Below, one piece after another: positions 40,341 through 56,665 of a DNA stretch of 64,000 bases. Source of the DNA: Clostridiales bacterium Firm_04 (GTDB lineage Bacteria > Bacillota > Clostridia > Oscillospirales > Ruminococcaceae); the NCBI GenBank assembly GCA_001603005.1, contig LVAJ01000021.1, forward strand, positions 1 through 64,000. The letters are read 5' to 3'. A program made the translations under genes and the position numbers. Position 1 is the first letter of the stretch; each line of letters opens with the position of its first letter. The notes under the pieces are model-generated. The model was given only the letters and a program-made list of their open reading frames with translations. It had not been told where the DNA came from and did not search any database.

Positions 40341-43300
40341 TCAGTTTGCCGCTGCATAGGCTTCTGCTGCCTTTGCGTATGCATAGAGCGCATTGACCAG
40401 CGTTTTCAGCTTCGGATTGCTGCTGCCGCCGTTCATGACCGCATAGCCGTAGGACAGCGCGCTCAGGTTCTCGTATCTGGTGTCGCCGACAACGAGCGTT
40501 TTCGGCGTGCCGAGCTGATGTGCGGGGATGTTGCGGATATAGTAATAATTGCCCTCTTTTTCCAGAACCTTGCCGCCGTAGGAAACGGTTCCCTTGCCGC
40601 TGTATGCGATGCGGATGCTGGTCTCGGTGTTCATGATCAGCGCGATCTTTGCAGAGCCGCTGCCGGTTTTCCTGAATTTGTATGCAGAGAAATTGCCGTT
40701 TGCGACGTTCAGGTCATCATGCTGCGCAATACCGAAATAGGTTTCAGCGGATTTGCAGTACTGATCCAGTGCATTGACCAGCGCTTTCAGCTTCGCATCA
40801 TTCTGATACGCTGTCACATTTGCGATATAGTCGCTGACCGAATATCTGACCGCGTTGTTCCGGAGCTTTTCATATTCGCTGTTGTAGATATCAAGCGTCT
40901 TTCCGTCCGCAGTATAGATCTTCATGCTGATGATCTCACTTGCCTGCGTTGCGCTGACGCCGAACGAGAACAGGTATGTGCCGTCAGACTGCTTTGCGGC
41001 AGCGAGCTGATCGCCGGTGTATGTTTCCGTTATGCCGCCGCCCCACAGAGAGACCTTTGCAGCATTTTCGCTCAGCTTGACGCGGAAGTTGAGCCCGATT
41101 TTGCCGTCCAGCGACATGCCGATGCCGAGCACGCGGTTGCCGTATGCAATGACCTCATCGTTCTCGAATGTGACAAAGTTGCGGTTGTATTTTTCTGCAT
41201 ATGCGTGTGCAGTGCTGTTTTCGCTGCTGCGGATCTTTGCAGCGGAAGGAATTGTTTTCGCCGCATCTGCGATCACGCAGTCCGGTGCCTGAATCGAGAT
41301 CAGCTTCAGATTTGCATAACCGGAAATATCATTTTGTCCGATTGATTTCATGGTTTTCGGCAGGATGATCGCCGCAACTGTTCCGCTGTCAAATGCGTGC
41401 TCCGGAATCGCCGTGACGCCCTCGCGGAAAATGACTTCCAGATTGGTGCTTTTTGTGTCGAATGCGCATTTATGGATGTATGTAATGCCGGTGCCGATCG
41501 AAACGGATTCCAGCGCTGTGCAGTTGTAAAATGCACCTTCGTCATTATAGCCGCCGCATTCGATCGACTGAACAGAATCCGGCAGCGTCACATTTTCCAG
41601 CGCGGCGCAGTTACGGAAGCACTCCGCGGGAATGCTCTCTGTACCTTCATTGAACGCGACCGATACCAAAGATTCGCAGCCTTTGAATGCAGCTCTTTCA
41701 AGCGCACAGCCCGGCAGCGTCAGTTCCGTCAGCCCCGTACCTTGAAATGCATATGCTTGGATCTTTGCAAGACCGTCGGGGAAATTGCAGACAGTCAGAT
41801 TGGAACAATTGAAAAATGCATTTTTTCCCACAGTTTTCAGTGAATCCGGCAGAACCACCTTTGTAAGTTCTGTTCTTTTGTAGAACGATTCATCCGGAAT
41901 CGCTGTGACACCTTCACGGAATGTGATCTCCAGCTCTGTGCCCTTTGTCTGGAATGCGTTTTTGTCAATGTAAGTAATGCCGGAGCCGATCGAAACGGTT
42001 TTCAGTGCAGGGCAGTTGTTGAATGCGCCTTCGTCATCAAAGCCGCCGCAGTTGATCGACTGAACGGAATCCGGCAGCGTGATGCTTTCCAGCGCGGTGC
42101 AGTAACGGAAGCACTCTGCGGGAATGCTCTCCGTGCCTTCGTTGATCTTCACTGTTTTCAGTGATTTGCAGCCATAAAACGCTTCTCTGCCAAGCGCACA
42201 GCCCGGCAGCGTCACTTCTGTCAGAGCCGTTGATTTGAACCCGTCTTCACCGATTTCAGTCAGATTATCAGGGAAATTGCAGCTGCTCAGACTGGAGCAG
42301 TCGGCAAATGCTCTTGCGCCGATCGTTTTCAGCGTATCCGGCAGAATCACTTTTGTGAGTTCCGTTCTTCCGTTGAATGATTCAGCCGGAATTGCGGTGA
42401 CACCTTTGCGGAATGTGACTTCCAGCTCTGTGCCCTTTGTCTGGAATGCGTTTTTGTCAATGTAAGTAATGCCGGAGCCGATCGAAACGGTTTTCAGTGC
42501 AGGGCAGTTGTTGAATGCACCCTCGTCCGAAAAACCGCCGCAGTTGATCGACTGAACGGAATCCGGCAGCGTGACGCTTTCCAGCGCGGTGCAGTAACGG
42601 AAGCACTCTGCGGGGATGCTCTCCGTGCCATTATTGATCTTCACTGTTTTCAGTGATTTGCAGTCATAAAACGCTTCTCTGCCAAGCGCACAGCCCGGCA
42701 GCGTCAGCTCAGTCAGAGCCGTTGATTTGAACCCGTCTTCACCGATCTCTGTAAGACCGGCAGGGAAATTACAGCTGCTCAGATTGGAGCAGTCGGCAAA
42801 TGCTCTTGCGCCGATCGTTTTCAGCGAATCCGGCAGAACAACCTTTGTGAGTTCCGTTCTTCCGTAGAAAGATTCATCCGGAATCGCTGTGACACCTTCA
42901 CGGAATGTGATCTCCAGCTCTGTGCCCTTTGTCTGGAATGCGTTTTTGTCAATGTAAGTAATGCCGGAGCCGATCGAAACGGTTTTCAGTGCAGGGCAGT
43001 TGTTGAATGCACCCTCGTCCGAAAAACCGCCGCAGTTGATCGACTGAACGGAATCCGGCAGTGTGACGCTTTCCAGCGCTTTGCAGAAACGGAAGCACTC
43101 TGCGGGAATGATTTCCGTGCCATTATTGATCGTCAGCGTTTTCAGCGATTTGCAGTTGTAAAACGCTTCTCTGCCAAGCGCACAGCCCGGCAGATTCAGT
43201 TCTGTCAGAGCCGTTTCACAGAATGCATCTTCACCGATCTCTGTGAGACTGTCGGGGAAATTGCATTTACTCAGACTGGAACAGCCGGAAAAAGCCCGGT

Positions 43301-43679
43301 AGCCGATGACTTCGATCGTATCCGGAAGCGTGATCTCCGTCAACGCGGAGCAGTTCCGGAACAGTTCTGCACCGATCGCGGTGAGCGTGTGCGCTGCATC
43401 GGTGTTCTGAATGACCGCCTTCTTGATCTTTGACCGATAGGATGAGAGATTGCCGGTCAATTCCGACATATCGCCGGATCCGGTCACGGTGAGCGTGCCG
43501 TTTTTGTCCAGCTGCCATGTGACCGTTGCACAGAGCGTACCGCTTGCAGCGATCTCCGGCGTTTCTTCGGCGGCGGCAGCAATTGCCGGACGGATTCCGG
43601 CAGCATTCTGCGCGGCGGGTGCCGCTGCTGCCAGAAGCAGGAATGCTGTCAGGAATACTGCAGTTTTTGTCAGCCTCAT
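40341..43679 (-). CDS. Giant secreted leucine-rich-repeat (BspA-like) surface protein
   Basis: The 1,112-residue protein has a signal peptide (about 1-28), then about 20 BspA-type leucine-rich repeats (pattern LTEITLPDTIEVIGYRAFSGC) to about residue 830 and a C-terminal domain of about 250 residues without a recognised anchor. The repeats form higher-order blocks of 164 residues (492 bp) that are nearly identical. BspA-like repeats bind proteins or surfaces. Start after AAAGGAGGAACT; promoter TTGCTT-17-TATAAT at 43802-43830. A 32-residue peptide gene follows in the same transcript. Confidence 0.82.
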   Translation of the reverse strand: MRLTKTAVFLTAFLLLAAAAPAAQNAAGIRPAIAAAAEETPEIAASGTLCATVTWQLDKNGTLTVTGSGDMSELTGNLSSYRSKIKKAVIQNTDAAHTLTAIGAELFRNCSALTEITLPDTIEVIGYRAFSGCSSLSKCNFPDSLTEIGEDAFCETALTELNLPGCALGREAFYNCKSLKTLTINNGTEIIPAECFRFCKALESVTLPDSVQSINCGGFSDEGAFNNCPALKTVSIGSGITYIDKNAFQTKGTELEITFREGVTAIPDESFYGRTELTKVVLPDSLKTIGARAFADCSNLSSCNFPAGLTEIGEDGFKSTALTELTLPGCALGREAFYDCKSLKTVKINNGTESIPAECFRYCTALESVTLPDSVQSINCGGFSDEGAFNNCPALKTVSIGSGITYIDKNAFQTKGTELEVTFRKGVTAIPAESFNGRTELTKVILPDTLKTIGARAFADCSSLSSCNFPDNLTEIGEDGFKSTALTEVTLPGCALGREAFYGCKSLKTVKINEGTESIPAECFRYCTALESITLPDSVQSINCGGFDDEGAFNNCPALKTVSIGSGITYIDKNAFQTKGTELEITFREGVTAIPDESFYKRTELTKVVLPDSLKTVGKNAFFNCSNLTVCNFPDGLAKIQAYAFQGTGLTELTLPGCALERAAFKGCESLVSVAFNEGTESIPAECFRNCAALENVTLPDSVQSIECGGYNDEGAFYNCTALESVSIGTGITYIHKCAFDTKSTNLEVIFREGVTAIPEHAFDSGTVAAIILPKTMKSIGQNDISGYANLKLISIQAPDCVIADAAKTIPSAAKIRSSENSTAHAYAEKYNRNFVTFENDEVIAYGNRVLGIGMSLDGKIGLNFRVKLSENAAKVSLWGGGITETYTGDQLAAAKQSDGTYLFSFGVSATQASEIISMKIYTADGKTLDIYNSEYEKLRNNAVRYSVSDYIANVTAYQNDAKLKALVNALDQYCKSAETYFGIAQHDDLNVANGNFSAYKFRKTGSGSAKIALIMNTETSIRIAYSGKGTVSYGGKVLEKEGNYYYIRNIPAHQLGTPKTLVVGDTRYENLSALSYGYAVMNGGSSNPKLKTLVNALYAYAKAAEAYAAAN
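41449..43220 (-). repeat. 492-bp direct repeats inside the leucine-rich-repeat gene
   Basis: The segment CCCTTTGTCTGGAATGCG recurs at 41941, 42433 and 42925, a constant 492-bp period, with long identical stretches around it; a diverged fourth unit lies near 41449. Recent duplication or gene conversion within the gene is likely. Confidence 0.9.
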
Positions 43680-43902: not shown

Positions 43903-43937
43903 AAAAAATGAGCCGCAGACAATTTTGCCTGCAGCCC
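43903..43937 (-). terminator. Terminator of the phosphonate-lipid operon
   Basis: On the minus strand GGGCTGCAGGCA and TGTCTGCGGCTC pair with G-U wobbles and are followed by ATTTTTT. Confidence 0.65.
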
Positions 43938-43955
43938 GTATAGTTTATGATGATG

Positions 43956-45071
43956 CTATGCCAGATAGTCCATGAACGACTGCTTGTTTTCGCGCGCAGT
44001 CGTTGTCGGGCGTCCGAGGTTTTCGCGCGCACCGATCGCACACTGCACCTCGATCAGAGAAAGCGCATGCCGTTCTTTTGCATCCGCAAGCGCACGGTCC
44101 AGCGCATCGAATGTCCCGACGCAAACCGTGTGCGGATAGCCGCATGCCCTTGCGATCTCTGCAATGCTGCATCCGGATGCGGCTGTCGGCATCCCGCCGA
44201 CGGTCTCGTGTGCGCCGTTGTTGATCACAATATGGATCAGATTCTGCGGGCGGTACTGTCCCGTGACGGCAAGGCTGCCCATGTGCATCAGCACGGCACC
44301 GTCGCCGTCAATGCACCAGAACCGCAGCTCCGGTCTGCTGAGCGCAAGCCCCAGCGCGATCGAGGACGCATGCCCCATCGAACCGACCGTCAGGAAATCG
44401 TATTTGTGGCTCCGGTGACCGGCTTCACGGAGCTCGAACAGCTCGCGGCTCGCCTTGCCGGTCGTGGAAACGACGGGATCCTCTCCCGAAGCCAGCAGAA
44501 CATGCCGGATGACGTCCTCGCGCAGCAGCGCATTGCTGTTCCGGTACTGCACGGGCTGCTCGTCTGTCAGGGCACCCTTGCGCACGACGATCGCCGCCTG
44601 TCTGCCGGATGCGAACAGTCTGCGGAAATCATCCATTGCAGCGGCAAGCGCATCCTCTGCGGTATCCGGACCGAGCACAAATGACGCGATTTCCAGATCT
44701 TCCAGCAGCTTCAGCGTGACCGCCCCTTGATAGCGATGCTGCGGCTCGTCGTGCACGCCGGGTTCGCCGCGCCAGCCGATCACAAACAGCATCGGGATCG
44801 CGTAAACCTGCGGGTGCAGCAAAGATGCTGCCGGATTGATGAGATTGCCCTCGCCGGAATTTTGCATGTAGACGGCAGGGACTTTTCCGGTCGCGAGGTG
44901 ATAGCCGGCGGCGAGTGCCGCGCAGTTGCCCTCATTCGCCGCAATGATGTGGTGCTGCGGATCGGTGCCGTAAGTGCGGATCAGATAATTGCAGAGCGCT
45001 TTCAGCTGGGAATCCGGTACGCCGGTATAAAAATCCGCGCCGATGATCCGGACAAAATCTTCTGCTCTCAT
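43956..45071 (-). CDS. aepY: Phosphonopyruvate decarboxylase
   Basis: The 371-residue thiamine-diphosphate enzyme matches the phosphonopyruvate/sulfopyruvate decarboxylase family: FYTGVPDSQLKALCNYL at the N-terminus, AANEGNCAALAAGYHLATG with the cofactor-activating Glu, and the TPP/Mg motif GDGAVLMHMGSLAVTG...INNG. It converts phosphonopyruvate to phosphonoacetaldehyde, pulling the unfavourable PEP mutase reaction forward. It is the last gene of the operon and overlaps the dehydrogenase gene by ATGA. Confidence 0.9.
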   Translation of the reverse strand: MRAEDFVRIIGADFYTGVPDSQLKALCNYLIRTYGTDPQHHIIAANEGNCAALAAGYHLATGKVPAVYMQNSGEGNLINPAASLLHPQVYAIPMLFVIGWRGEPGVHDEPQHRYQGAVTLKLLEDLEIASFVLGPDTAEDALAAAMDDFRRLFASGRQAAIVVRKGALTDEQPVQYRNSNALLREDVIRHVLLASGEDPVVSTTGKASRELFELREAGHRSHKYDFLTVGSMGHASSIALGLALSRPELRFWCIDGDGAVLMHMGSLAVTGQYRPQNLIHIVINNGAHETVGGMPTAASGCSIAEIARACGYPHTVCVGTFDALDRALADAKERHALSLIEVQCAIGARENLGRPTTTARENKQSFMDYLA

Positions 45072-46195
45072 GGCATCTGCTCCTTCTCAAGGATCTGCGC
45101 ATACAGCTGCCGGATCGTATCTGCGGTCAGCTGCACCGGATGATTTCCGAGCCGGTCTGCATTGACCGAGCATGTCAGCATGTCCAGCTCGGCAGCCGCT
45201 GCAGGCGTTTCAATGCCCGGCAGCAGCGAATCCACAAATGCTGCAAAAAATGTCGGGAGCTCCGCCGCGGTCGTGCAGCCCATTGCCTCTGCGATCTCCG
45301 TATAAACCTGATGCAGATGTGCCGCACCGCGCGTGTCGATGCAGAGATCGGGATGCGCCGTCATGAACGGCAGCAGCGCCTTGACGCAGAGCGCCGCCGC
45401 ATGTCCGTGCGAGATGCCGTAATGCATGGTCAGCTGATAGCACATTGCGTGACCGGCGGTCGTTTTGGTCACATTGATCGCTTTTCCGGCAAAATGCGCC
45501 GCTTTCAGCATGTTTCGGCAGCCGGTATCCGTGCCGGCAAGATAGTCGTCTTTGTTTGCGGCGATCAGCCGGAGCGCGGCTGCTGCATCCTTCATGCTGT
45601 CCGCATCCGAATGCAGCGACCAGTACGATTCGACTGCGTGACAGACCGCATCGAGCATCGTGGATTTTTTTTGATAGGGCGGGAGCGTTTTCAGCGCATC
45701 CGGATCAAACAGCACCGCATCCGGCAGCAGACTGTCGTCCTCTGCGGACTGCTTCACGCCGTTTTCGTATACCACGGCAAAATGTGTCGCCTCGCTGCCG
45801 GAACCCGCTGTGGTCGGGATCGCGAGGAACGGAACGGTATTCGGGACGGGCGGCTGATGCAGCGCCTGTTCGGGATCGCGCGCGTTGATGCAGAGCTTGA
45901 TGCATTTTGCGACGTCGATCGCACTGCCGCCGCCGACTGCCGCGAGCATATCGCAGCCGTTCGCGCGGTATGTAGCCAGCCCCTTGACTGCGGAGCTGAA
46001 ATCCGGATTCGGGTTGAAATCGGAAAACCGCACCACGCGGATCCCGCAGCGCTGTTCCAGTGTTTCAAAGTATGTGTTCAGACGCAGCTTCCGGATCGAG
46101 CCGCCGCATACGAGCAGGACGCATTTTGCGTCAGCTGCGGCAAAATATCCGTCAAGCTCGGTGTAATCTGTGGTTGCAGTCATGAGTGTTTGCAT
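45068..46195 (-). CDS. Fe-type alcohol dehydrogenase, probable phosphonoacetaldehyde reductase
   Basis: The 375-residue protein is an iron-containing (type III) alcohol dehydrogenase: GGGSAIDVAKCIKL (NAD loop), IPTTAGSGSEAT, and metal-binding His/Asp region HAMCYQLTMHYGISHGHAAAL. Beside PEP mutase and phosphonopyruvate decarboxylase, this family reduces phosphonoacetaldehyde to 2-hydroxyethylphosphonate. No aminotransferase for 2-aminoethylphosphonate lies in the operon, which supports the hydroxy rather than amino product. GGAGG site 9 bp before the ATG; 1-bp gap to the upstream gene. Confidence 0.85.
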   Translation of the reverse strand: MQTLMTATTDYTELDGYFAAADAKCVLLVCGGSIRKLRLNTYFETLEQRCGIRVVRFSDFNPNPDFSSAVKGLATYRANGCDMLAAVGGGSAIDVAKCIKLCINARDPEQALHQPPVPNTVPFLAIPTTAGSGSEATHFAVVYENGVKQSAEDDSLLPDAVLFDPDALKTLPPYQKKSTMLDAVCHAVESYWSLHSDADSMKDAAAALRLIAANKDDYLAGTDTGCRNMLKAAHFAGKAINVTKTTAGHAMCYQLTMHYGISHGHAAALCVKALLPFMTAHPDLCIDTRGAAHLHQVYTEIAEAMGCTTAAELPTFFAAFVDSLLPGIETPAAAAELDMLTCSVNADRLGNHPVQLTADTIRQLYAQILEKEQMP

Positions 46196-46196
46196 G

Positions 46197-48215
46197 TTAA
46201 GTATCCTCCGGTATCAATCGAATAATCTGCTGAAACGGCATACAGACCGCATCGCATTCCTTTGCGCGGTGATGTGTCAGGATCAGTTCGGCAGCCTTCT
46301 GCATTGCCGGAAAGCTGCTGCGCGTCAGCTGGTTTGCGTAGATGACCACATTGATCCCGTGCGCTTTGAGCTCCTCCTCTGTGATCGTGTTGAAGGCTGT
46401 CGGCACCACGACGAGCGGCGTGACCGGATCCCTTGCCCGGAAACGGTCTGCAAAGGCAAGGATCTCCGACGGATCGGTTTTGCGGGAATGGATCATCACG
46501 GCATCCGCGCCCGCATCCGTATAGGCAAAGGCACGCGTCAGCGCATCCTCCATGCCGCGTTCCAGAATCAGGCTTTCAATGCGCGCGCAGATCATGAATG
46601 TATCGGTTTTCTGCGCATTTTTTCCGGCGCGGATCTTCGCGCAGAAATCGGGGATCTCCGCCTGTGTCTGCGCCGCCTCCGTCCCGAACAGCGAGTTCTT
46701 TTTCAGACCGGTTTTATCCTCGATCACGACCATTGACACGCCCATGCGTTCGAGTGTCCGCACCGTATGCACGAAATGCTCCGTCAGACCGCCGGTGTCG
46801 CCGTCAAAAATGACCGGCTTTGTTGTCACGTCCATGATCTCGTCGATCGTCCGGAAACGGGATGTCATATCGACCAGTTCGATGTCCGGCTTGCCCTTTG
46901 CGGTCGAATCGCAGAGCGACGAAACCCACATCGCATCGAACTGCCGCAGACCGCTGTTTTCCGGCACCGCCGTTTTCTCCGCAATCAGTCCGGTCAGACC
47001 GCTGTGTGCTTCCAGTGCGGTCACGAGCCCTTTCATCGCGATCGCTTTTTTCAGCCGTGCGCGCCGGAAGTCCGGCATGGACATTTCCGCGCGGGCGCGC
47101 TTTTCCAGTTCGCGGTATGCGTCATCATTTGCATACGGCGTTTCGATCAGTCTGCCGCCGTAGCTTTGCAGCACGGCGATCACCTCATCGCGGATCTGCT
47201 GCTGGATGCCGGTGCGCCAGTCATCGCCGTGTACGACAAAATCGGGGCGGTACTGCATGAGATTTTCGCGGTAGCTGAGCGTATTTTGCGCAGTGACCTT
47301 CCATACCCCCGCGATCGCCTCAAACATCGCTTTCCGCTCCGGAAACGGCATCAGCGGAAAGCGCTTGTAGGTCACGACCGCTTCGTCGGTCAGCACGCCG
47401 ATCAGCAGTCTGCCGTAGCGCTTTGCCTTCCGGATCAGCGCGATATGCCCGCTGTGGATCATATCCGTTGAAAAGCAGAGATAGACCGTCCGTTCGCGGA
47501 GTGCGCAGAGCCTTTCGGAGACTGCCGCAAGATCGTCTGCATTGTCGATCTCCGCGCAGAGCCGGTCACCGAAATCCAGCGGCATGATCTGTTTGTCCGC
47601 GATCGCGTTGAGCGCATCTTCCGCATAGCACTTCTGCTGCGCCGGATCGCCGGATTCGCAGAACGCAATGATGCCGGCAAGCCATTTGTCCCATTCCGTC
47701 CGCTTCAGATGATAGAGCGGCTGCGCGGCAAGTGCACGGTCAAAAAATGCAGTCCCGACCTTCTGGATGCAGCCGTCCGCGATCACCGCCTTGAAATCCT
47801 TTTCCGGCAGCGGCAGCGCAGATGAAACGGTCATGCAGCTCTGCTCCGCAGCGAGCACATCGTCCAGCACGGTCGGATCAAACACGAGGTCGCCGTGCAG
47901 CAGCAGGATGTCTTCATGCAGCAGATGCCCGCGCGCACAGTAGATCGAGTAGATGTAGTTTGTTTCGGCATAACGCGGATTTTTCACAAATGTGATCTGC
48001 AGCGGCAGTTCCAGACTGCGGCAGTATTGTTCCAGTACATCGGCAAATGCGCCGGTCGTCATCACGACCTCGCGGATGCCGCGCTCTGCAAGCATCGAAA
48101 GCTGCCTGCTGACGATCGTTTCTTCCGCGGCGATTTCCGTCATGCACTTGGGCTGTTCCGCGGTCAGCGCGCCCATCCGGCTGCCGAGACCGGAGTTCAG
48201 GATCAGTGCTTTCAC
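46197..48215 (-). CDS. Three-domain nucleotidyltransferase/cytidylyltransferase/PEP mutase
   Basis: The 672-residue protein (GTG start) joins three enzymes. Residues about 1-238: LicC/MobA-like nucleotidyltransferase (ALILNSGLGSRM...KCMTEI). About 243-375: cytidylyltransferase-like fold with HSGH at 254-257 (HxGH class). About 405-665: PEP mutase with DGDTGG and the signature EDKTGLKKNS at 499-508, which separates true mutases from lyases. It should form the C-P bond of phosphonopyruvate and activate a phosphonate as a CMP derivative. Two nucleotidyltransferase domains in one chain are unusual. GTGA overlap with the upstream gene. Confidence 0.9.
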   Translation of the reverse strand: MKALILNSGLGSRMGALTAEQPKCMTEIAAEETIVSRQLSMLAERGIREVVMTTGAFADVLEQYCRSLELPLQITFVKNPRYAETNYIYSIYCARGHLLHEDILLLHGDLVFDPTVLDDVLAAEQSCMTVSSALPLPEKDFKAVIADGCIQKVGTAFFDRALAAQPLYHLKRTEWDKWLAGIIAFCESGDPAQQKCYAEDALNAIADKQIMPLDFGDRLCAEIDNADDLAAVSERLCALRERTVYLCFSTDMIHSGHIALIRKAKRYGRLLIGVLTDEAVVTYKRFPLMPFPERKAMFEAIAGVWKVTAQNTLSYRENLMQYRPDFVVHGDDWRTGIQQQIRDEVIAVLQSYGGRLIETPYANDDAYRELEKRARAEMSMPDFRRARLKKAIAMKGLVTALEAHSGLTGLIAEKTAVPENSGLRQFDAMWVSSLCDSTAKGKPDIELVDMTSRFRTIDEIMDVTTKPVIFDGDTGGLTEHFVHTVRTLERMGVSMVVIEDKTGLKKNSLFGTEAAQTQAEIPDFCAKIRAGKNAQKTDTFMICARIESLILERGMEDALTRAFAYTDAGADAVMIHSRKTDPSEILAFADRFRARDPVTPLVVVPTAFNTITEEELKAHGINVVIYANQLTRSSFPAMQKAAELILTHHRAKECDAVCMPFQQIIRLIPEDT

Positions 48216-48862
48216 CAGTTATCCCTTCTTTTCGTCTTTCGTTTCAGGATCAGCCGGCTGAGCAGCTTTCCGTTCAGCCGGAGCATGTCCGTCAGATATC
48301 TGACCGGCTCCCATCGCTGCATATATCGCGGATAACCGGCAGAAGCCTGCCGCGGGAGCAGCCCCTCGAAATACAGATGCGGCGTGAGCAGCGCGTCCAG
48401 CTCCGGGATCGAATAGCATTCAACCGATTTTTGCAGCTGCACGCAGCCGGAGAGCTCCGCGACCTTTGCGGTGAACGACATGCAGTTATGCGCCTTATAG
48501 ACCGGCAGCCCGTGCAGGAGCGGCATGGTCATCATCGCATAGAGATTGAAGATCTCCCCGCGGTCGGATTCGCATTTTTTGAGAAAACGCCGGATCGCCT
48601 GCATATGCGCATCGTCCGGACAGAGCCGGAATACTTTGACCTTGACGTCCTTGTGCGTTCCGAATGCATAATAATCGCGGTATTCATGTGCAAATCCCGC
48701 ATCAAACGGAAAATTGTGATACCGCCGCGAATAGCTGATAAAGTCGGTCAGGGAGCGGTCGAGGCTCACTGCGGCATGCGTGTACGGATACCGCGTGAAC
48801 AGCCGTGCGAAGCTGCCGAGTCCGGTATGCGCGCGGATCAGGACAAGAAAGATCTCATTCAC
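48212..48862 (-). CDS. Permuted papain-fold (YiiX/LRAT-like) protein
   Basis: The 216-residue protein (GTG start after AAGGAGA) has the layout of permuted NlpC/P60 proteins: an early His in YPYTHAAVSLD (about 29) and a later Cys in KAHNCMSFTAKV (about 127). This fold includes YiiX-like hydrolases and lecithin:retinol acyltransferase-type enzymes that act on lipid esters or amides. In this operon it may move or remove an acyl group on the phosphonolipid. It overlaps both neighbours (8 and 4 bp). Confidence 0.68.
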   Translation of the reverse strand: MNEIFLVLIRAHTGLGSFARLFTRYPYTHAAVSLDRSLTDFISYSRRYHNFPFDAGFAHEYRDYYAFGTHKDVKVKVFRLCPDDAHMQAIRRFLKKCESDRGEIFNLYAMMTMPLLHGLPVYKAHNCMSFTAKVAELSGCVQLQKSVECYSIPELDALLTPHLYFEGLLPRQASAGYPRYMQRWEPVRYLTDMLRLNGKLLSRLILKRKTKRRDNW

Positions 48863-49535
48863 TGCCGTCTGTCTCCTTCAGTCTGCGGAACAGTCTGACC
48901 TGCAGGCGGATCATCTCATAGTACATCGGGATCATGCCGATTAGCATGACGAGATCCATGACCGTGAAGCCGGCAGAACCGATCGTGAGGATCTCTTTTG
49001 TCCGGAAGATCATGCCGAGCACGCAGATCGCGGCATAGGACAGATGTGCTTCGATCGGGCCGAGGCGCGGGAACTGAAATTCATTGAAATAGATGATGTA
49101 ATTCATGATCGTGACATTCGTGACGCCGTAAAGCGGTGCCGCAAATGCCGCGAGCTTCATGCTGCAATAGGGCGTCAGACCGAATGCCAGCAGCAGGAAC
49201 GTCGAGAACAGCACGTCGGTGATCAGATCGAAATAGGCGCCTGCTCTGGACGACATGCCGCGATTGCGGGCGATATAGCCGTCGAGGTCATCCGCGGTCA
49301 GATGCACCGCGATGCCCGCGATCGTGCCGAGAAAGAACCACGGGCTGAGATTCGTCAGCAGCGTGAAGATGATCGCTGCAAGACCGCCCAGCGCGCCGAC
49401 CAGTGTCATGTCATTCGGCGTCATGCCAGCGGGAATGTATTTGCCGGCATGCTTGTATAAAAACTGCTGAAAACCGGTTTCGAGCCTGCTCGGGATCAGC
49501 TTTTTGACCGGATTCTGATAGGTTTGCTTTGCCAT
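48855..49535 (-). CDS. CDP-alcohol phosphatidyltransferase
   Basis: The 226-residue membrane enzyme has the exact family signature D(x)2DG(x)2AR(x)8G(x)3D(x)3D at residues 82-107 (DDLDGYIAR...GAYFDLITD) and about six membrane helices. The family transfers a phospho-alcohol or phosphatidyl group from a CMP-linked donor to an alcohol. Next to enzymes making a CMP-phosphonate, the likely reaction is transfer of hydroxyethylphosphonate to diacylglycerol or a related lipid. Start at 49535; the GGAGGG site overlaps the stop of the radical SAM gene. Confidence 0.88.
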   Translation of the reverse strand: MAKQTYQNPVKKLIPSRLETGFQQFLYKHAGKYIPAGMTPNDMTLVGALGGLAAIIFTLLTNLSPWFFLGTIAGIAVHLTADDLDGYIARNRGMSSRAGAYFDLITDVLFSTFLLLAFGLTPYCSMKLAAFAAPLYGVTNVTIMNYIIYFNEFQFPRLGPIEAHLSYAAICVLGMIFRTKEILTIGSAGFTVMDLVMLIGMIPMYYEMIRLQVRLFRRLKETDGSE

Positions 49536-49536
49536 G

Positions 49537-50868
49537 TTACCCTCCGAATCTGAACAGATTTTTGACCATGGAACGGATATAGAAGCCGTAATCGAGAAAG
49601 TCGTAGATACCGTCCCGCCTGCCCTTGAGAAAGAGCATGACCACAAGAATGTGATAATAGAAATAATAGCGCTTCACACTCATGTTCGACGGCTTTGCGA
49701 CCACATGCAGATAATCCCACTGGCTCGGATCCGTCGTGATCAGTCTGCGTTTGTAATCCGCAAACTGCGGCGAGCTCATTTCCGGCGTAAAGATCGAGAT
49801 CGCCGTATGTTTCAGGTCATGCCGGCGGATCCATTTGTAGATGCTGAAAAAATCTGCGCGTTTGAAATCCAGATCGACAATGAACATGCCCATCATGTTG
49901 ATGCCGGTCTCGTTCAGGATCCGGACGGCTTCCGCATTTGTCTGCGGACCGGTTTTTTTGTTGTATGCTTTCAGCCGCTTTCCGTCGGCAGCTTCGAGAC
50001 CGGTCAGCACATAGTAGAATCCGATGTCTTTGAGCTGACGCATCAGATCGGGATTTGCCGCGACGAAATCCGCTCTGCCGTAGCAGACGTATTTTTTGCG
50101 GATCCCGCGCTGCCGGATCAGTGCGATAAAGCGCTCGATGCGTTTGCGGTCAAAGAGAAAATCATCGTCAATGAAATAGATATTCTCGCATTCGATCGCG
50201 GCGATCTCATCCACAACATCCTCGATCGGACGCACGGAATAGCTTCCGCAGTTCATCTGATTGCGGCAGCAGAATTTGCAGCGGTACGGGCAGCAGTATG
50301 CGGAGCGGACATGCGCGCAGGGGAGCAGCTCCAGATAGCGGTAGCGGTCGGTATGCGCGTAGAAATAGCTTCTGTCCGGACGCGGCAGGCGGGCAATGTC
50401 AAACGGCTGTGCGGGTTTGATGATCCATTTTCCGTCATGCCGCAGGCATACGCTGTGCGCGGGCTCTCCGCCTGCAAGGATCTCTCCGATGTGGAAGATA
50501 TCGAATGAGGTCAGGACAAAGTCGATATTCTTTGTGCAGAAGCGTTTGAAATTGAGCTGCGCATGCAGTCCGCCGACGATCGTGATGCAGCCTGCCGCCT
50601 TTGCCGCAGCGCAGTATTCCTTCATGAAATTCTCCTGCCGCGTTCTGCCGCAGACATAGACCGCAAACGGCTTCACTTGGCGCAGACGGTCTGCGAATTT
50701 CTGCGTTTCGACCTGTCCGTCCCAGATCTCCGGCGCATAGCCCTGTTCTTTGAGCATTGCGGAGATGTATTCCAGCTCCAGCGGTTCATTGTCGATCACG
50801 CCCGCAAAATTATACTTGTTGCGGGAGATCTCCGGATGTACCAGCAGTACCTTGCGATTCGCGTTCAT
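49537..50868 (-). CDS. B12-binding-type radical SAM protein
   Basis: The 443-residue protein has an N-terminal Rossmann-like cobalamin-binding-type domain (about 1-135), the radical SAM cluster motif CxxxCxxC at Cys193, Cys197 and Cys200 (CPYRCKFC), and a radical SAM barrel to about 380. Such enzymes methylate unactivated carbons or rearrange substrates; Fom3 of fosfomycin biosynthesis methylates a CMP-activated hydroxyethylphosphonate. Here it could modify the phosphonate or the lipid chain. It is not certain that the N-domain binds cobalamin, because a DxHxxG motif is not obvious. Confidence 0.82.
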   Translation of the reverse strand: MNANRKVLLVHPEISRNKYNFAGVIDNEPLELEYISAMLKEQGYAPEIWDGQVETQKFADRLRQVKPFAVYVCGRTRQENFMKEYCAAAKAAGCITIVGGLHAQLNFKRFCTKNIDFVLTSFDIFHIGEILAGGEPAHSVCLRHDGKWIIKPAQPFDIARLPRPDRSYFYAHTDRYRYLELLPCAHVRSAYCCPYRCKFCCRNQMNCGSYSVRPIEDVVDEIAAIECENIYFIDDDFLFDRKRIERFIALIRQRGIRKKYVCYGRADFVAANPDLMRQLKDIGFYYVLTGLEAADGKRLKAYNKKTGPQTNAEAVRILNETGINMMGMFIVDLDFKRADFFSIYKWIRRHDLKHTAISIFTPEMSSPQFADYKRRLITTDPSQWDYLHVVAKPSNMSVKRYYFYYHILVVMLFLKGRRDGIYDFLDYGFYIRSMVKNLFRFGG

Positions 50869-50872
50869 CCTC

Positions 50873-52513
50873 TCACCCCTCTGCGATCAGTTCGTTATAG
50901 GCGATCTTTCCGACCAGTGTTTTCGGGAAGCTGTTCACAAAGACGATCTCCTTCGGGATCGCATAGGCAGCGACCGATTTCTGCATCAGCTGCATCAGCT
51001 CGGAGCGGACTTTTTCCTCGGAACATGTGCCGCGCAGCATCACATATGCTTTGGCGATCTGTCCGCGCTGGGCATCGGGCACGCCGATGACGGCGCACAT
51101 CGCGACCTGTTCATGGGAGCTGATGACGTTTTCAATGTTCTGCGGGTAGATGTTGTAGCCGTTTGAAATGATCATGCGTTTCAGCCGCTGCCGGAAATAG
51201 ATGTAGCCTTCTTCATCCTGAAAACCGAGATCGCCCGTATGCAGCCAGACCTTGCCGTCCGCATCCCTGCGGAGCGTCTGTGCGGTTTCATCCGGTTCAT
51301 TGTAATAGCCCTTCATGACCGTCGGGCCGCTGAGCACGATCTCTCCGGTGCCGCCGGCAGGTGCGTCCGCGCCGGTTTCCGGATCGACAATGCGGTATTC
51401 CGTATCCGCATAGGGCAGACCGCAGGTCTCGGAGATCGTGCAGCCGTCGGGCGTCAGGCAGCTGCCGGTCACGCATTCGGTCAGACCGTAGCCCTCGCGC
51501 ACCGTACATTTGCAGCCGTGACTGCGGAGCATTTCATTCAGCTTGATCTTGGTATTCGCAGCGAGGGAGTCGCCGCCGGAGATCACGCATTTGATGAAAT
51601 CGAGCGATTTTCCCTCAAATCCGCTGCTGCGGAGCATCGCCTCATAGATCGCAGGGACGCCCGCAATGACATTCGGTCTGTATTTGAAAATCAGCCTGTC
51701 GAACTCCCTGACGTTGAATTTCGGGAGAATGACTGCCGTGCCGCCGAATGTCAGCACCGTATGGATGCAGACGCCGAGCCCGAAGCCGTGGAACACCGGC
51801 ATCACGGAGAGGACGCGGTCGCCTTTGGCAAGACATCCGCATGCATCAATGCTCTGCAGCGCGAGCGCGTTGAAGTTCAGGTTTGTCAGCATGATGCCCT
51901 TGGGCTTTCCGGTCGTGCCGCCGCTGTACAGGATCGCCGCGCAGTCATCGGGTTTGCCGTCGTGCGGCGCTGCACTGTCCGGCGCCGGATCGCCCATTGC
52001 GAGAAAGCTTTTCCAGTTCATGAAGCCGGAGCGCGGCGCATGATCCTTCAGGCTCTTGAGAAAATAACCGGCTTTCATCAGCATGGACATGCCGTCGGCA
52101 GGGGAGACCGTCACCGCAAGATCAAGCTCCGTTTTTGCCGCGACCTTTTCCAGCTTGTCCGCGATCAGATCAACCGCAAAGATGAAGCGGCTTTTTGTCA
52201 GGCGCATGTCATGGATGATCTCCTCCTCTGCGGAGAGCGGGTGGATCATGTTTGCCGCCGCGCCGATCCGGCTGACCGCATAGAACAGATAGATCGCCTC
52301 CGGAATATTCGGCAGACAGATCGAAACGACGTCACCTGTTTTGATGCCTGCGCCCGTCAGTGCAGCGGCAGTGCGGTCGATCTCACGGATCAGTTCGCTG
52401 TATGTGATTGTGCGCCCGAAGTATTCGACGGCACCTGCATTGCCGTACTGCGCAGCCTTCTGCCGGATATGTTCATAGACAGAGCACTGCGGATAATCAA
52501 GATGTCTTTTCAT
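50873..52513 (-). CDS. AMP-forming acyl-CoA synthetase/ligase
   Basis: The 546-residue protein belongs to the ANL superfamily: P-loop YSGGTTGKPKG, GYGLTECVTGS, LHTGDLG and the hinge region RLKRMIISNGYNIYP with the C-terminal catalytic Lys in TLVGKIAYNE. It activates a fatty or other carboxylic acid as the adenylate and thioester. Placed directly behind a PlsC acyltransferase it probably supplies the acyl donor. Start at 52513 after GGAGGGAAGAAC; overlaps the upstream gene by 17 bp. Confidence 0.88.
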   Translation of the reverse strand: MKRHLDYPQCSVYEHIRQKAAQYGNAGAVEYFGRTITYSELIREIDRTAAALTGAGIKTGDVVSICLPNIPEAIYLFYAVSRIGAAANMIHPLSAEEEIIHDMRLTKSRFIFAVDLIADKLEKVAAKTELDLAVTVSPADGMSMLMKAGYFLKSLKDHAPRSGFMNWKSFLAMGDPAPDSAAPHDGKPDDCAAILYSGGTTGKPKGIMLTNLNFNALALQSIDACGCLAKGDRVLSVMPVFHGFGLGVCIHTVLTFGGTAVILPKFNVREFDRLIFKYRPNVIAGVPAIYEAMLRSSGFEGKSLDFIKCVISGGDSLAANTKIKLNEMLRSHGCKCTVREGYGLTECVTGSCLTPDGCTISETCGLPYADTEYRIVDPETGADAPAGGTGEIVLSGPTVMKGYYNEPDETAQTLRRDADGKVWLHTGDLGFQDEEGYIYFRQRLKRMIISNGYNIYPQNIENVISSHEQVAMCAVIGVPDAQRGQIAKAYVMLRGTCSEEKVRSELMQLMQKSVAAYAIPKEIVFVNSFPKTLVGKIAYNELIAEG

Positions 52514-53156
52514 GTTCTTCCCTCCACGCATCATAGGCGGTCAGCCGTTTGGTTCTGCGGATCTCCGGCGGCATGACCGTTTCGAGCAGCTGTGCGACTG
52601 CCTCGTACAGCGCACGGTTGATCTCGTCCGGCGTTCTGCCGTCGGGACGGATCGGTTTCCCGAAGCGGATCGTGACCTTGCCGCGGAACGGCTTGTACGT
52701 ACCCGTGACCGCATACGGAATGATCGGCGCGCCGGTGCGCTGCGACATCACAGCCGCGCCGTATTTGAACGGCAGCAGCAGTTCATCCGTATAATTGCGC
52801 TTTGCCTCCGGCGATACATTCACGAGCTGCCCGCCGCGGAGCGCTTCCACAGCAGCTTTCAGCGCATCTGGATTGTGTGCGCTGTGCAGATCGACCGGAA
52901 TCGTTCCGGCAGCGCGGAACAGGAATCCGAATGCGCCGTCATGGAGCGCTTTCTTGGCAAGGGTACACACCACTCTTTTTGTGCAGATGTCCACGAAGAT
53001 CGGATCCAGCGCATGCATATGGTTGCCTGCGAGCACGGCAGCACCCTCTGCGGGGATCTGTTCGCTGCCGATGATCTCTTTGCGGAACAGAAGGGAGAAC
53101 AGCGGTTTGAATACCAGCCGGAGCGACCGGTATACCAGCATATTTTGCTTTTTCAT
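52497..53156 (-). CDS. PlsC-type 1-acylglycerol-3-phosphate acyltransferase
   Basis: The 219-residue protein has the acyltransferase motif NHxxxxD at 45-51 (GNHMHALD), a block III-like VNVSPEAKRN in place of the common FPEGTRS, and the VTGTYKPF region. It would acylate lysophosphatidate or a lysolipid. It is the first gene of the leftward phosphonate-lipid operon, right behind a TTGAAA-17-TATAAT promoter, with AAGGAAAGGAAC as ribosome binding site. Confidence 0.87.
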   Translation of the reverse strand: MKKQNMLVYRSLRLVFKPLFSLLFRKEIIGSEQIPAEGAAVLAGNHMHALDPIFVDICTKRVVCTLAKKALHDGAFGFLFRAAGTIPVDLHSAHNPDALKAAVEALRGGQLVNVSPEAKRNYTDELLLPFKYGAAVMSQRTGAPIIPYAVTGTYKPFRGKVTIRFGKPIRPDGRTPDEINRALYEAVAQLLETVMPPEIRRTKRLTAYDAWREEHEKTS

Positions 53157-53184
53157 GTTACGTTCCTTTCCTTGCAGTCAACTT

Positions 53185-53213
53185 ATTATACCATTTTTGT
53201 CCGGTTCTTTCAA
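53185..53213 (-). promoter_or_regulatory. Promoter of the phosphonate-lipid operon
   Basis: TTGAAA (53213-53208), 17 bp, TATAAT (53190-53185) on the minus strand; leader only about 20 nt. Confidence 0.75.
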
Positions 53214-53417
53214 GTATGCGGGTTCATCTGCTGTATTTATGATAGCATATCCGCACCGGAAAAGGAAGATGCCGCCCGTCATCGGGAATGTGACATTTGT
53301 CACTCCGGGCGGGGAGCTCCCGCGGGCATTTCCCTTCGGGAGCCGGTTTCGCGGACTGTACCCGCAGCCACAGTTCACGCCGCCAGACGCGGCTTCTCAA
53401 TCGTGACTGCTTCCAAA

Positions 53418-53723: not shown

Positions 53724-53900
53724 ATGCTGATAATAACCAGACAGGCAATAGGCGATACTGTGCTTTCAAAAATGCGTTCGGAAATGCCGGACAAGTTCTC
53801 CGGCAGCTGTCATATGTCTCGGAATAGATCAGCATCCGGATGTGTGTCTCCTTTTAGAAAGGTTCTCAGCGAAAGGGAGGAGGATGATGGATACGGATAA
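53724..53900 (+). CDS. Possible leader ORF of the pilus operon
   Basis: A 58-codon ORF (MLIITRQAIGDTVL...) with an AAAGGAGG site 11 bp before the ATG. It ends 14 bp inside the SipA-like gene. The sequence after the first residues is of poor quality as protein, so it may be a leader peptide or chance. A hairpin, GCCGGACAAGTTCTCCGGC, lies inside it. Confidence 0.25.
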   Translation: MLIITRQAIGDTVLSKMRSEMPDKFSGSCHMSRNRSASGCVSPFRKVLSEREEDDGYG

Positions 53901-54465
53901 AACCGAAACCACAGCCCCGAAAGCAGAACCTGAGAAGGACAAAAAGGCTTCAGACGTTCAAATGAAGCCAAAGAAAAAACGAACTGCGAAAAGCTACGCA
54001 ATATCCTTTTTTATCAAGGTGTTCGTAACGCTGATTGTTCTGACAGTTGTGTTCAGGTTCATTGCAGGGATACACATCTGTCACACGAACTGTGCGTACC
54101 CGACGATCAGGGACGGCGAATTTATCCTTACCTACCGGCTCGCCGATCTGAAACAGGGAGCGATGATCGTTTATCGCCGTGACGGAGAGGTGAGATTCGG
54201 ACGTGTCATCGCATTCAGCAATGATAAGGTTAATATTTTCAATGATTTTATTTCTGTCAATGACTATGGCATCTCCGAAAATGCAGTCTATCCCACATCA
54301 CCGGAAGGCTCGGCGATCAGCTACCCTTATCAGGTACCCGAAAACTGCGTATTTGTTCTGAATGATTTTCGCAGCGACATTTCCGATAGCAGGACCTATG
54401 GCGGAATACCGCTGGAGGATGTTGAAGGAGCCGTTGTGTTCACGATGCGAATGCGCGGTATTTAA
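53887..54465 (+). CDS. Signal-peptidase-I-like pilus chaperone lacking the catalytic dyad (SipA-like)
   Basis: The 192-residue protein has a charged N-terminus, one membrane helix (about 38-60) and an S26 signal peptidase fold. Where active enzymes have Ser in S-M-x-P-T, it has Cys69-Ala (NCAYPTIRDGEF); where they have Lys in K-R-V-I, it has Gly105 (FGRVIAF). Loss of the Ser/Lys dyad with retained fold is the mark of the pilus-assembly factor SipA of streptococcal FCT loci. It sits first in a pilin/class B sortase operon. Start at 53887 (or 53884) after GGGAGGAGG. Confidence 0.75.
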   Translation: MDTDKTETTAPKAEPEKDKKASDVQMKPKKKRTAKSYAISFFIKVFVTLIVLTVVFRFIAGIHICHTNCAYPTIRDGEFILTYRLADLKQGAMIVYRRDGEVRFGRVIAFSNDKVNIFNDFISVNDYGISENAVYPTSPEGSAISYPYQVPENCVFVLNDFRSDISDSRTYGGIPLEDVEGAVVFTMRMRGI

Positions 54466-54519
54466 GCCATGTTATATCCACGAGCCTTATTAACATATTT
54501 CGTTGTTAGGAGGATCCTT

Positions 54520-55941
54520 ATGAAAAAGTACAGACGATTTGCAAATTTCATTGCTTCCGCAGCCGTTATCGCCTCTGCTGCCGCTGTGCCTATGAGCGCA
54601 AGTGCTGCCGGAACGACTTACAGCAGTACGCTTACAACAGAAAATGACAAGAAAGTCACAACGCTTGACAAGTATCTCGTGATGAAAGCGGATGCAACTG
54701 TTCCGAATGCACAGTTCACCTTCTCTGTTGCACCGGGTACTGCGATCGACGCTGATAAGGAAAATGGCACGCTTGCTGTGCTTGCCGGAATCGGCACGCC
54801 TGTACTGTCTAACGGCGGCACTATGACATTCTCGACTGCTGATACGACAACAGCCGAGGCAGCTAAGGGCACCGATACACCTGTGTTTGTCACAGCGGAT
54901 ACATCTGACGAGAAGTATGTCAAAAAGGTGCTGACACTTGATTTTTCCGGCGTCGCATTTACAGAACCGGGTGTCTACCGCTATCTTATCACGGAAGCAG
55001 GTACAAATCAGGGTATCACCAATGGCTATGTTGACGCATCGACGACCGAGACAGTCAGAACGCTTGACGTATATGTAGAAGATGCAGGCACAACGGCTGC
55101 TGATGGTACTGATGCCGGAAAGCCGCAGCTCAAGATCACCGGCTACGTTATGTATAACGGCACGCAGACAGGTGCACCCAAGGCATCGGCAGCCACTCCC
55201 GAAGCCACACCAAACGGTGCAGAGGCAGCAGGTGCGGCGAAAAATGATACGATCACAAATGTATATTCCTCACAGGATCTGACCTTCGGCAAGGCAGTTA
55301 CAGGAAATCAGGGCTCAAAGGACAAGTATTTCAAGTATACCGTTGAGATCAGCAATATCTCTGCTGAAAACGCAAAGCTCAGCGCAGATCTGACAGGTGC
55401 CGATTCGGCAGTTCCGGCTTCTCCGAACGCTGCAACAAATGGGGATTATGCAGGAAAAGTGAATCCTGCGGAGCTGATTGCTGATACAGCCAAAACAATC
55501 ACTGCTGACGGCTACACAGCAGAAGCAGTTACGTCCGGCGAAGCACCTGATACCGTCACTGCATACAAGATCACCGCAGAATATTATCTCCAGCACGGTC
55601 AGTATATCACCATTCAGGGGCTTCCAAAAGGTGTTTCCTATTCTGTGACCGAAGATGAGGAAGACTATACTCAGACATCAGGCATCGCGGCTGCCCTCAG
55701 CCCCCTGAACTGGGACGGTGATGACACCAACGGTAATGATGCTCTGGAAAATGCAGCAGAAGGAACCATTGCCGATGCGGATATCCACACCGGTTACACC
55801 AACGACCGCTCCGGAGCGATCCCCACAGGTATCCTTTCGACTGTTGCAGGCTCTCTTGGGATCGTGGCGCTCGGCATTGCCGGTGTTGCAGGCGGCGCTG
55901 TTTACCTGAAAAAGAAGAAGTCTGAGGATGAGGACGAGTAA
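54520..55941 (+). CDS. Major pilin, FctA/Spy0128-like
   Basis: The 473-residue protein has a signal peptide (about 1-30), two FctA-type Ig-like domains (about 40-215, with GVYRYLITEAG; and about 265-430, from DLTFGKAVTGNQGSKDKYFKYTVE), and a C-terminal sorting signal: IPTG motif, hydrophobic helix and KKKK tail. FctA domains usually carry internal Lys-Asn isopeptide bonds. It should be polymerised by the class B sortase encoded next. Start at 54520 after TTAGGAGGATCC. Confidence 0.85.
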   Translation: MKKYRRFANFIASAAVIASAAAVPMSASAAGTTYSSTLTTENDKKVTTLDKYLVMKADATVPNAQFTFSVAPGTAIDADKENGTLAVLAGIGTPVLSNGGTMTFSTADTTTAEAAKGTDTPVFVTADTSDEKYVKKVLTLDFSGVAFTEPGVYRYLITEAGTNQGITNGYVDASTTETVRTLDVYVEDAGTTAADGTDAGKPQLKITGYVMYNGTQTGAPKASAATPEATPNGAEAAGAAKNDTITNVYSSQDLTFGKAVTGNQGSKDKYFKYTVEISNISAENAKLSADLTGADSAVPASPNAATNGDYAGKVNPAELIADTAKTITADGYTAEAVTSGEAPDTVTAYKITAEYYLQHGQYITIQGLPKGVSYSVTEDEEDYTQTSGIAAALSPLNWDGDDTNGNDALENAAEGTIADADIHTGYTNDRSGAIPTGILSTVAGSLGIVALGIAGVAGGAVYLKKKKSEDEDE

Positions 55942-55944
55942 GCA

Positions 55945-56649: not shown

Positions 56650-56665
56650 GAAGGGAGGTAAGCAT

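Follow-up and report, generated by a model that had tools for sequence, protein, structure and literature searches.

A candidate phosphonate glycerolipid operon in a gut Clostridia genome, with a widespread phosphonate core and a separate lipid cassette

Background

Does an operon that packs genes for phosphonate synthesis together with genes for lipid assembly serve a single product, a membrane lipid with a phosphonate head group? The question is raised by eight leftward genes in Clostridiales bacterium Firm_04 (Clostridia; Ruminococcaceae), which has its relatives in animal guts, on the 64,000-nucleotide stretch of contig LVAJ01000021.1 that we analysed as a whole and call the window (G000:C16:1-64000; draft genome of 3.54 Mb, 88.6 % complete). 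A sequence-only reading of this DNA had proposed that the operon makes a diacylglycerol hydroxyethylphosphonate or a modified form of it.

Phosphonolipids as such are already known, and sphingophosphonolipids occur in the Bdellovibrio group. For Burkholderia, a 2-hydroxyphosphonoacetate lipid head group has been suggested (PMC12723261). The product proposed here would have a phosphonate head group in common with these bacterial phosphonolipids; the head group itself differs. In the open-access literature searched, we found no operon for a glycerolipid of 2-hydroxyethylphosphonate (HEP) or another hydroxyalkylphosphonate that includes a Kennedy-like bacterial transferase.

Here we present a comparative analysis of the eight genes, their occurrence in related genomes and the families to which their products belong. 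Gene content, motifs, family membership, linkage and the recurrence of a lipid cassette with phosphoenolpyruvate (PEP) mutase are direct observations. On balance we lean, at a little above even confidence, to the interpretation that the operon makes a phosphonate glycerolipid (a diacylglycerol hydroxyalkylphosphonate) via a Kennedy-like route. The earlier phosphonolipid idea holds in outline and is strengthened by this recurrence; it needs amending in that the phosphonate core is common without lipid genes and the lipid genes form a unit of their own.

Results

A conserved operon of eight genes

The operon is real. Its eight genes, all on the minus strand, run from 53156 to 43956, and the tight packing described in the sequence-only reading (gaps of at most 4 bp, most junctions overlapping) was found again: four of the seven junctions overlap and the other three leave 1-4 bp. 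First comes a PlsC-type acyltransferase (52497..53156, 219 aa), recognised by its HMHALD motif and by NCBIfam. It overlaps by 17 bp an AMP-binding long-chain acyl ligase assigned by family matches (50873..52513, 546 aa), whose start we place, from the upstream bases, at the ATG at 52513; the list of open reading frames (ORFs) has a longer frame, 553 aa from 52534. After 4 bp follows a B12-binding radical S-adenosylmethionine (SAM) protein with the motif CPYRCKFC (49537..50868, 443 aa) and, 1 bp further, a CDP-alcohol phosphotransferase with the full D..DG..AR...G...D...D motif (48855..49535, 226 aa), started at the ATG at 49535 rather than at the TTG at 49646 of the ORF list. Next, with an overlap of 8 bp, is a probable permuted papain-like protein (YaeF/YiiX, C92-like; 48212..48862, 216 aa, GTG start), which overlaps by 4 bp a three-domain PEP mutase protein, also with a GTG start (46197..48215). 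The last two genes, separated from the preceding one by 1 bp and overlapping each other by 4 bp, encode an iron-containing alcohol dehydrogenase (Fe-ADH; 45068..46195), a candidate phosphonoacetaldehyde reductase of FomC-like kind, and a phosphonopyruvate decarboxylase (Ppd, Fom2-like; 43956..45071). Six of these products had been named before; the two left without a name are the B12/radical-SAM and the papain-like proteins.

The promoter and the terminator proposed for the two ends of the operon were both located, each as a look-alike. The promoter-like site (53185..53213, minus strand) reads TTGAAA-17-TATAAT with a TG before the second hexamer (extended type) and matches at 11 of 12 positions; 15 such sites occur in 15 kb against 9.6 in shuffles, and a single site carries little weight. 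The terminator-like element (43910..43937, minus strand) is a 12-pair hairpin with a T-run, of a kind that shows no overall enrichment (14 versus 15.3).

A sister genome (G004) gives the bounds of the unit. When positions 35001-62000 of the window were compared with 20 kb of that genome, a single matching block was found, 43962-53303, at 83.5 % identity; the operon and the promoter-like site inside the block are kept and the surroundings differ. Because only this block is shared, the bounds of the operon are those of a conserved unit. The closest named relative at the locus is Oscillospiraceae bacterium isolate Tb.RUG.135 (locus L032, a contig of G004). The G+C content of 43956-53156 is 57.5 %, compared with 51.1 % for the whole window.

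The phosphonate half resembles the early fosfomycin pathway

The three-domain protein consists of a LicC/PntC-like nucleotidyltransferase (NTP transferase; about residues 1-230; MobA-like, with LicC among its PDB matches), a Fom1-type cytidylyltransferase domain (CyltD; about 241-363) with an HSGH (HxGH) motif, and a PEP mutase domain (PepM; 388-671) with the EDKTGLKKNS motif that had been pointed out earlier. CyltD matches the Fom1 structure 5x3d at E 1.5e-38 over 123 aa, and the PEP mutase domain reaches 392.2 bits against TIGR02320 (cut-off 319.55). Ppd is likewise over its cut-off, with 449 bits against TIGR03297 (cut-off 312.5). The best NCBIfam model for the Fe-ADH is the phosphonate-associated TIGR03405, at 146.7 bits with a cut-off of 423.7, and because the score lies below that cut-off, phosphonoacetaldehyde is only its presumed substrate. 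From these family assignments, the phosphonate half should yield CMP-2-hydroxyethylphosphonate, as in fosfomycin synthesis. Family membership of PEP mutase, Ppd and CyltD thus supports the earlier claim of HEP-CMP synthesis, which is less secure at the Fe-ADH step.

In Streptomyces, 2-HEP-CMP arises from PEP by the action of Fom1, Fom2 and FomC and is then methylated by the B12-radical-SAM enzyme Fom3 (PMC8158854). The operon has counterparts of Fom1, Fom2 and FomC, sharing with that early pathway the CyltD-PEP mutase fusion, Ppd and Fe-ADH (PMC8158854), and one B12-radical-SAM gene of Fom3's class, for which no closer kinship to Fom3 is claimed. It differs in having a CDP-alcohol transferase, acyl genes and an extra LicC-like domain, and in having no FomD- or Fom4-like gene: no match to either family was found among the eight operon proteins. 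An antibiotic reading was set aside, since none of the eight matches an epoxidase or FomD.

A second relative is the pnt type of cluster with PntC, in which PEP mutase is also fused to NTP transferases that activate the phosphonate for transfer to the cell surface; fusion to both types of NTP-transferase domain, as here, is given for 2.9 % of Ppm enzymes (PMC6697681). The characterised pnt enzymes activate 2-aminoethylphosphonate (AEP) and show linkage to glycan genes (PMC6697681), whereas this operon has an Fe-ADH, a lipid transferase and no transaminase over the cut-off. The lack of an AEP aminotransferase had been taken to set the operon apart from the glycan systems. It extends to all nine of the cassette genomes described below that were searched (G009, G021 and G025 lay outside this search): none has an AEP transaminase (TIGR03301) over the cut-off of 360.8, and all nine have weaker matches, the best with 139 bits in G617. 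As a hallmark of a lipid pathway, however, this lack was not upheld, the PepM/Fe-ADH/Ppd core being usually without lipid genes nearby.

The lipid half recurs as a separate cassette

The lipid half (PlsC, AMP-ligase, radical-SAM protein, CDP-alcohol transferase and papain-like protein) is a separate, partly independent cassette. It was found in 12 genomes from three families: G000 (the window's own genome), G004, G009, G021, G025, G138, G169, G210, G244, G288, G617 and G671. The search used the radical-SAM protein as query, so this protein is present in 12 of 12 by construction. In the family sample it occurs at E < 1e-180 in 6 of 247 genomes, and in the genus at E < 1e-200 in 5 of 30. A sample of 391 class genomes added G617 and G671, two members of other families, where E is about 6e-175. 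Queried with the papain-like protein, the family sample is led by the same six cassette genomes at E 3e-52 or better, the next match being at 1e-23. The genes for PlsC, radical-SAM protein, CDP-alcohol transferase and papain-like protein stand together in constant order in the cassette genomes, where tblastn supplied open frames for PlsC and the papain-like gene in G009 and for the papain-like gene in G021; the AMP-ligase is absent from one cassette only, that of G617. An order-level search of 375 genomes with the CDP-alcohol transferase returned only the window's own copy, and scans of viral contigs found no relative of the cassette.

Radical-SAM relatives at 32-39 % identity in other Clostridia were excluded from the cassette count: in the five genomes read (G618, G381, G598, G513 and G447) of the ten that have them, they form clusters of several radical-SAM genes without other cassette genes. 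At L118, L121, L123, L124, L194-L196, L199 and L200, related B12/radical-SAM genes are clustered in threes or fours, in several cases next to a gene for a putative SAM methyltransferase. We take these clusters to be a different system.

The neighbours of the cassette vary. PEP mutase stands beside it in 5 of 12 genomes, in three gene architectures and two families: the three-domain NTP.CyltD.PepM protein with Fe-ADH and Ppd (G000, G004 and G617); CyltD-PepM, Ppd and an NTP transferase at a locus cut by the contig end (G138); and, in the one-contig genome G169, PepM (36 % identity) and an NTP transferase, each as a lone protein, together with Ppd and Fe-ADH. G288 has the NTP transferase alone, and G009, G021, G025, G210 and G671 have no core gene beside the cassette. 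In G617 a LysE-type translocator gene lies between cassette and core (L192 9611-10375) and could encode the exporter or flippase of the proposed lipid.

The cassettes without a neighbouring PEP mutase call for a look at another donor: the LicC-like NTP transferase could make some other CDP-alcohol for the cassette, with phosphonate optional or a second head group. This would fit G288, where the cassette adjoins an NTP transferase and PEP mutase lies elsewhere, and the five genomes with neither gene adjacent, and formation of phosphatidylinositol from CDP-inositol and diacylglycerol has been described in gut Bacteroidota (PMC10191378). Yet those six genomes all carry PEP mutase elsewhere, and G169 and G138 have PepM, Ppd and NTP transferase together beside the cassette. 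We regard such a donor as very improbable.

The cassette is associated with PEP mutase

A search for co-occurrence of the CDP-alcohol transferase with PEP mutase had been proposed as a check. Carried out on samples with the cassette, it found PEP mutase somewhere in 11 of 12 cassette genomes. In the family sample, PEP mutase at E 1e-40 or better occurs in 30 of 247 genomes and in five of the six with the cassette (Fisher test, p 1.1e-4; 7e-4 if the window is left out). When matches have to exceed the cut-off, which removes G169 and G074, the figures are 28 of 247 and four of six (p 0.0017; 0.010 without the window). In the genus, all five cassette genomes have PEP mutase against 10 of 30 overall, a count that includes G007, whose match has an internal stop (p 0.0018; 0.0053 without the window). 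All of these p values ignore kinship.

Kinship matters here. In a tree of 90 PEP-mutase domains (L105, too short, was left out), those of G000, G004, G210, L033 (G021) and L034 (G025) form one starred clade, to which L036 (G009) is adjacent. Apart from this clade, G617 forms a starred group with L092 and L094. The G288/G671 pair, G138 and G169 fall elsewhere; G138 and G169 have long branches and may be falsely joined. Much of the association between cassette and PEP mutase is shared descent. That core and cassette travel together on different contigs in the G000 clade fits a shared function, on few events.

The phosphonate core is common on its own

A pattern scan with one genome per species gave 311 stretches related to the three-domain protein, and the best 80 were analysed. 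Fe-ADH is present in 67 and Ppd in 69 of these 80 loci. Genes for the radical-SAM protein, CDP-alcohol transferase, PlsC and papain-like protein lie nearby in one (L032), within the available stretches, several of which end at contig edges. L033, L034 and L036 are among the 79 cassette-free loci, yet their genomes (G021, G025 and G009) carry the cassette elsewhere. Judged from their sequences alone, neighbours that recur beside the core look like flippases, glycosyltransferases and enzymes of nucleotide sugars; each of these clusters comprises 4-7 loci. In the main, then, PEP mutase with Fe-ADH is a core of wide distribution that has other genes attached to it in some loci.

The operon might accordingly hold two independent modules under one promoter, the core putting HEP on a cell-surface glycan, the role proposed for its relatives, and the cassette making an ordinary modified phospholipid. 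The cassette-free loci and their glycan-like neighbours speak for this arrangement, as does the genus, where five of ten PEP-mutase genomes have no cassette radical-SAM gene and three of five cassettes lie on a different contig from the core. It is at odds with the adjacency of PEP mutase and cassette in three architectures and two families, with the presence of PEP mutase in nearly every cassette genome, and with the window operon itself, which has no glycan gene. We hold two modules to be doubtful, though a possibility to be reckoned with.

Other features of core loci were recorded. L111 (3538-9203) and L110 (3318-10443) each have at least two PEP-mutase-type gene pieces. In the PEP-mutase tree, clostridial core proteins are interspersed with some from drafts that bear the labels Gastranaerophilales, Bacteroidales, Lentisphaeria and Synergistales (L039, L055, L056, L064, L083 and L106), a placement due to gene transfer in the gut or to binning errors. 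A plasmid-collection record of the gut strain Segatella copri DSM 18205 (NZ_CP085933.1, 126393-126830) has an aepX-annotated protein with a similar CyltD at 56 % identity.

The transferase profile points to a polar CDP donor

A profile of nine CDP-alcohol transferase orthologues matches first five PDB entries of CHPT1/CEPT1 type (8.5e-9 to 2.3e-6), next 4mnd, named for CDP-inositol (6.8e-6), and 4o6m (AF2299; 1.4e-5), and lower down PssA (1.3e-4) and PgsA (0.034). Control profiles from these genomes match their own kind first, at 1.8e-51 for the PgsA type (five sequences) and 3.4e-8 for the PssA type (four sequences). For CEPT1 and CHPT1 the donor is a polar CDP compound and the acceptor diacylglycerol (PMC10156783), in keeping with a CMP-phosphonate as donor here. 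The profile and both controls point to this class, with a polar CDP donor and diacylglycerol as acceptor, over CDP-diacylglycerol enzymes. The CDP motif D1xxD2GxxAR...GxxxD3xxxD4 is present, its residues invariant in the nine orthologues.

To the class-II signature a Glu/His dyad has been added, G2ExxD3HxxD4 (PMC10182977). The transferase has Ala100 and Leu104 at those positions. His78, Glu162 and His164 are invariant in the nine orthologues, and Glu162 and His164 align with a Glu and a Gln of hCEPT1, the latter being Gln217 by the residues named in PMC10156783, where it is said to contact lipid. Our guess is that Glu162/His164 may take over the role of the dyad. Among the Kennedy class-II enzymes (CHPT1, CEPT1 and EPT1), the transferase thus finds its best profile match and shares their CDP-binding motif; it differs in being bacterial, in its length of 226 aa versus about 380-406 in the PDB chains, and in the missing dyad. 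The earlier assignment to transferases with a CMP-linked donor is supported by the profile, nearest to enzymes with polar CDP donors, and left incomplete by the absent Glu/His pair.

Running in the class-I direction, the enzyme would join CDP-diacylglycerol to the hydroxyl of HEP and give phosphatidyl-O-ethylphosphonate, with one phosphate and one terminal phosphonate. In its favour, the CDP donor of most bacterial family members is lipophilic (PMC10156783), the class-II dyad is missing, and single-sequence NCBIfam comparison ranks class-I models first, namely archaetidylinositol-phosphate and PIP synthases, which have lipid CDP donors. This direction would leave the cytidylyltransferase domains without a role, and the profile ranking and both controls favour polar CDP donors; we consider it improbable.

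Acyl, radical-SAM and papain-like proteins

PlsC and the acyl ligase, earlier read as lipid-building genes, keep that reading through their family matches, with the qualification that G617 does without the ligase. The best NCBIfam model for PlsC is 1-acylglycerol-3-phosphate acyltransferase, below cut-off, and the second to fourth are acyltransferase parts of acyl-ACP-phospholipid acyltransferases (the Aas kind); those for the ligase are long-chain acyl-CoA ligases. As in Aas, the acyl-ACP synthetase/acyltransferase, a PlsC-like acyltransferase adjoins an AMP ligase. The two are separate proteins here, the acyltransferase and the ligase find their first matches among 1-acylglycerol-3-phosphate acyltransferases and long-chain acyl-CoA ligases respectively, and the ligase is not constant. 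Together they may serve de novo acylation or the reacylation of a lyso-lipid.

The nearest NCBIfam models for the radical-SAM protein are HpnR (hopanoid methylase), BchE and then PhpK (P-methyltransferase), all far below cut-off, and these family names leave the substrate unspecified. Its retention without an adjacent PEP mutase leans towards a lipid or late step; this is a weak hint because the cassettes were found through this protein, and a Fom3-like step is conceivable too. In the plasmid collection, the best 25 of 41 matches listed include no Fom3 annotation and no radical-SAM match above 32 % identity.

In the papain-like protein, His29 and Cys127 are invariant in 28 family members. The window protein has no Pfam match, and the family profile gave nothing convincing against PDB and Pfam. 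Compared with E. coli proteins, the profile has weak similarity to YaeF (probability 46 %, E 2.1e-4) and YiiX (2.4 %, E 0.019), in both of which (peptidase C92) a His and a Cys are in register with His29 and Cys127. The comparison proteins YijF and NlpE gave E 0.26 and 0.82; YijF may, we presume, be papain-like too, which would make NlpE the cleaner control. Three of the 28 family members match the YaeF model, with E 0.016 at best. Counting orthologues, 94 of the 247 family genomes have matches to the protein, so the fold is common in the family and the cassette member is one branch of it. For YiiX the annotation reads putative lipid-binding hydrolase, and the papain-like protein is a candidate lipase or acyltransferase. 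AlphaFold models, from two sequences each, were unusable for this protein (pLDDT 39.6) and for the CDP-alcohol transferase (39.5).

Discussion

From gene content and families we infer the reactions, the direction of the transferase, its acceptor, the product, the radical-SAM step and the acyl chemistry. PEP mutase, Ppd and Fe-ADH would convert PEP to HEP, which would be turned into CMP-HEP by one of the fused cytidylyltransferases, either the Fom1-type domain or the LicC-like one. The CDP-alcohol phosphotransferase would then release CMP and place the phosphonate on the hydroxyl group of an acylglycerol or diacylglycerol. PlsC and the acyl ligase, perhaps with the papain-like protein, would set or remodel the acyl chains, and the B12/radical-SAM protein could add a methyl group or make another radical change, on the head group or on an acyl chain.

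A bolder form of the phosphonate glycerolipid route takes the likeness to fosfomycin synthesis further. Its first four chemical steps, including a Fom3-like B12-radical methylation of CMP-HEP, would serve a membrane lipid in gut Clostridia; the CDP-alcohol transferase, by means of a new catalytic Glu/His pair, would transfer CMP-2-hydroxypropylphosphonate or CMP-HEP to diacylglycerol, and a papain-fold acyltransferase would carry out remodelling. As a whole, this version is unlikely.

Several observations weigh against a phosphonate glycerolipid. PEP mutase lies away from the cassette in G009, G021, G025, G210, G288 and G671, and in G671 it is surrounded by what look like glycan genes; in some genomes the phosphonate may go to both destinations, or to the glycan one. 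G244 has the cassette and no PEP mutase was found in it, on a contig that ends just past the cassette. The PEP mutase of G169, at 259.8 bits, is under the family cut-off of 319.55, with its EDK...NS motif intact. Because the PEP mutases of six cassette genomes share one part of the tree, the tests of association count few independent events. To these are added the Fe-ADH score, far under its cut-off, the missing class-II dyad and the class-I models that rank first for the single transferase sequence.

Divergent from the operon, at 53842-57352 on the plus strand, is a small pilus-like locus that encodes a sortase, an S26 signal peptidase, a DUF7601 protein and an isopeptide protein of FctA type. 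Directly downstream, at 40341-43679 on the minus strand, is a BspA-type leucine-rich repeat protein of 1112 aa that contains large repeated modules, and further on, at 38320-40167 on the plus strand, a protein of 615 aa in which a GFO/IDH/MocA oxidoreductase is fused to an aldo/keto reductase.

Conclusions

The operon names candidate genes for a whole phosphonate-glycerolipid route, and the predicted product can be sought directly. Phospholipases that attack phosphate esters from the head-group side cannot cleave a carbon-phosphorus bond. Aminophosphonate in the rumen is usually credited to protozoa; if the phosphonate glycerolipid reading is true, a bacterial phosphonolipid would be a further source of phosphonate in the gut.

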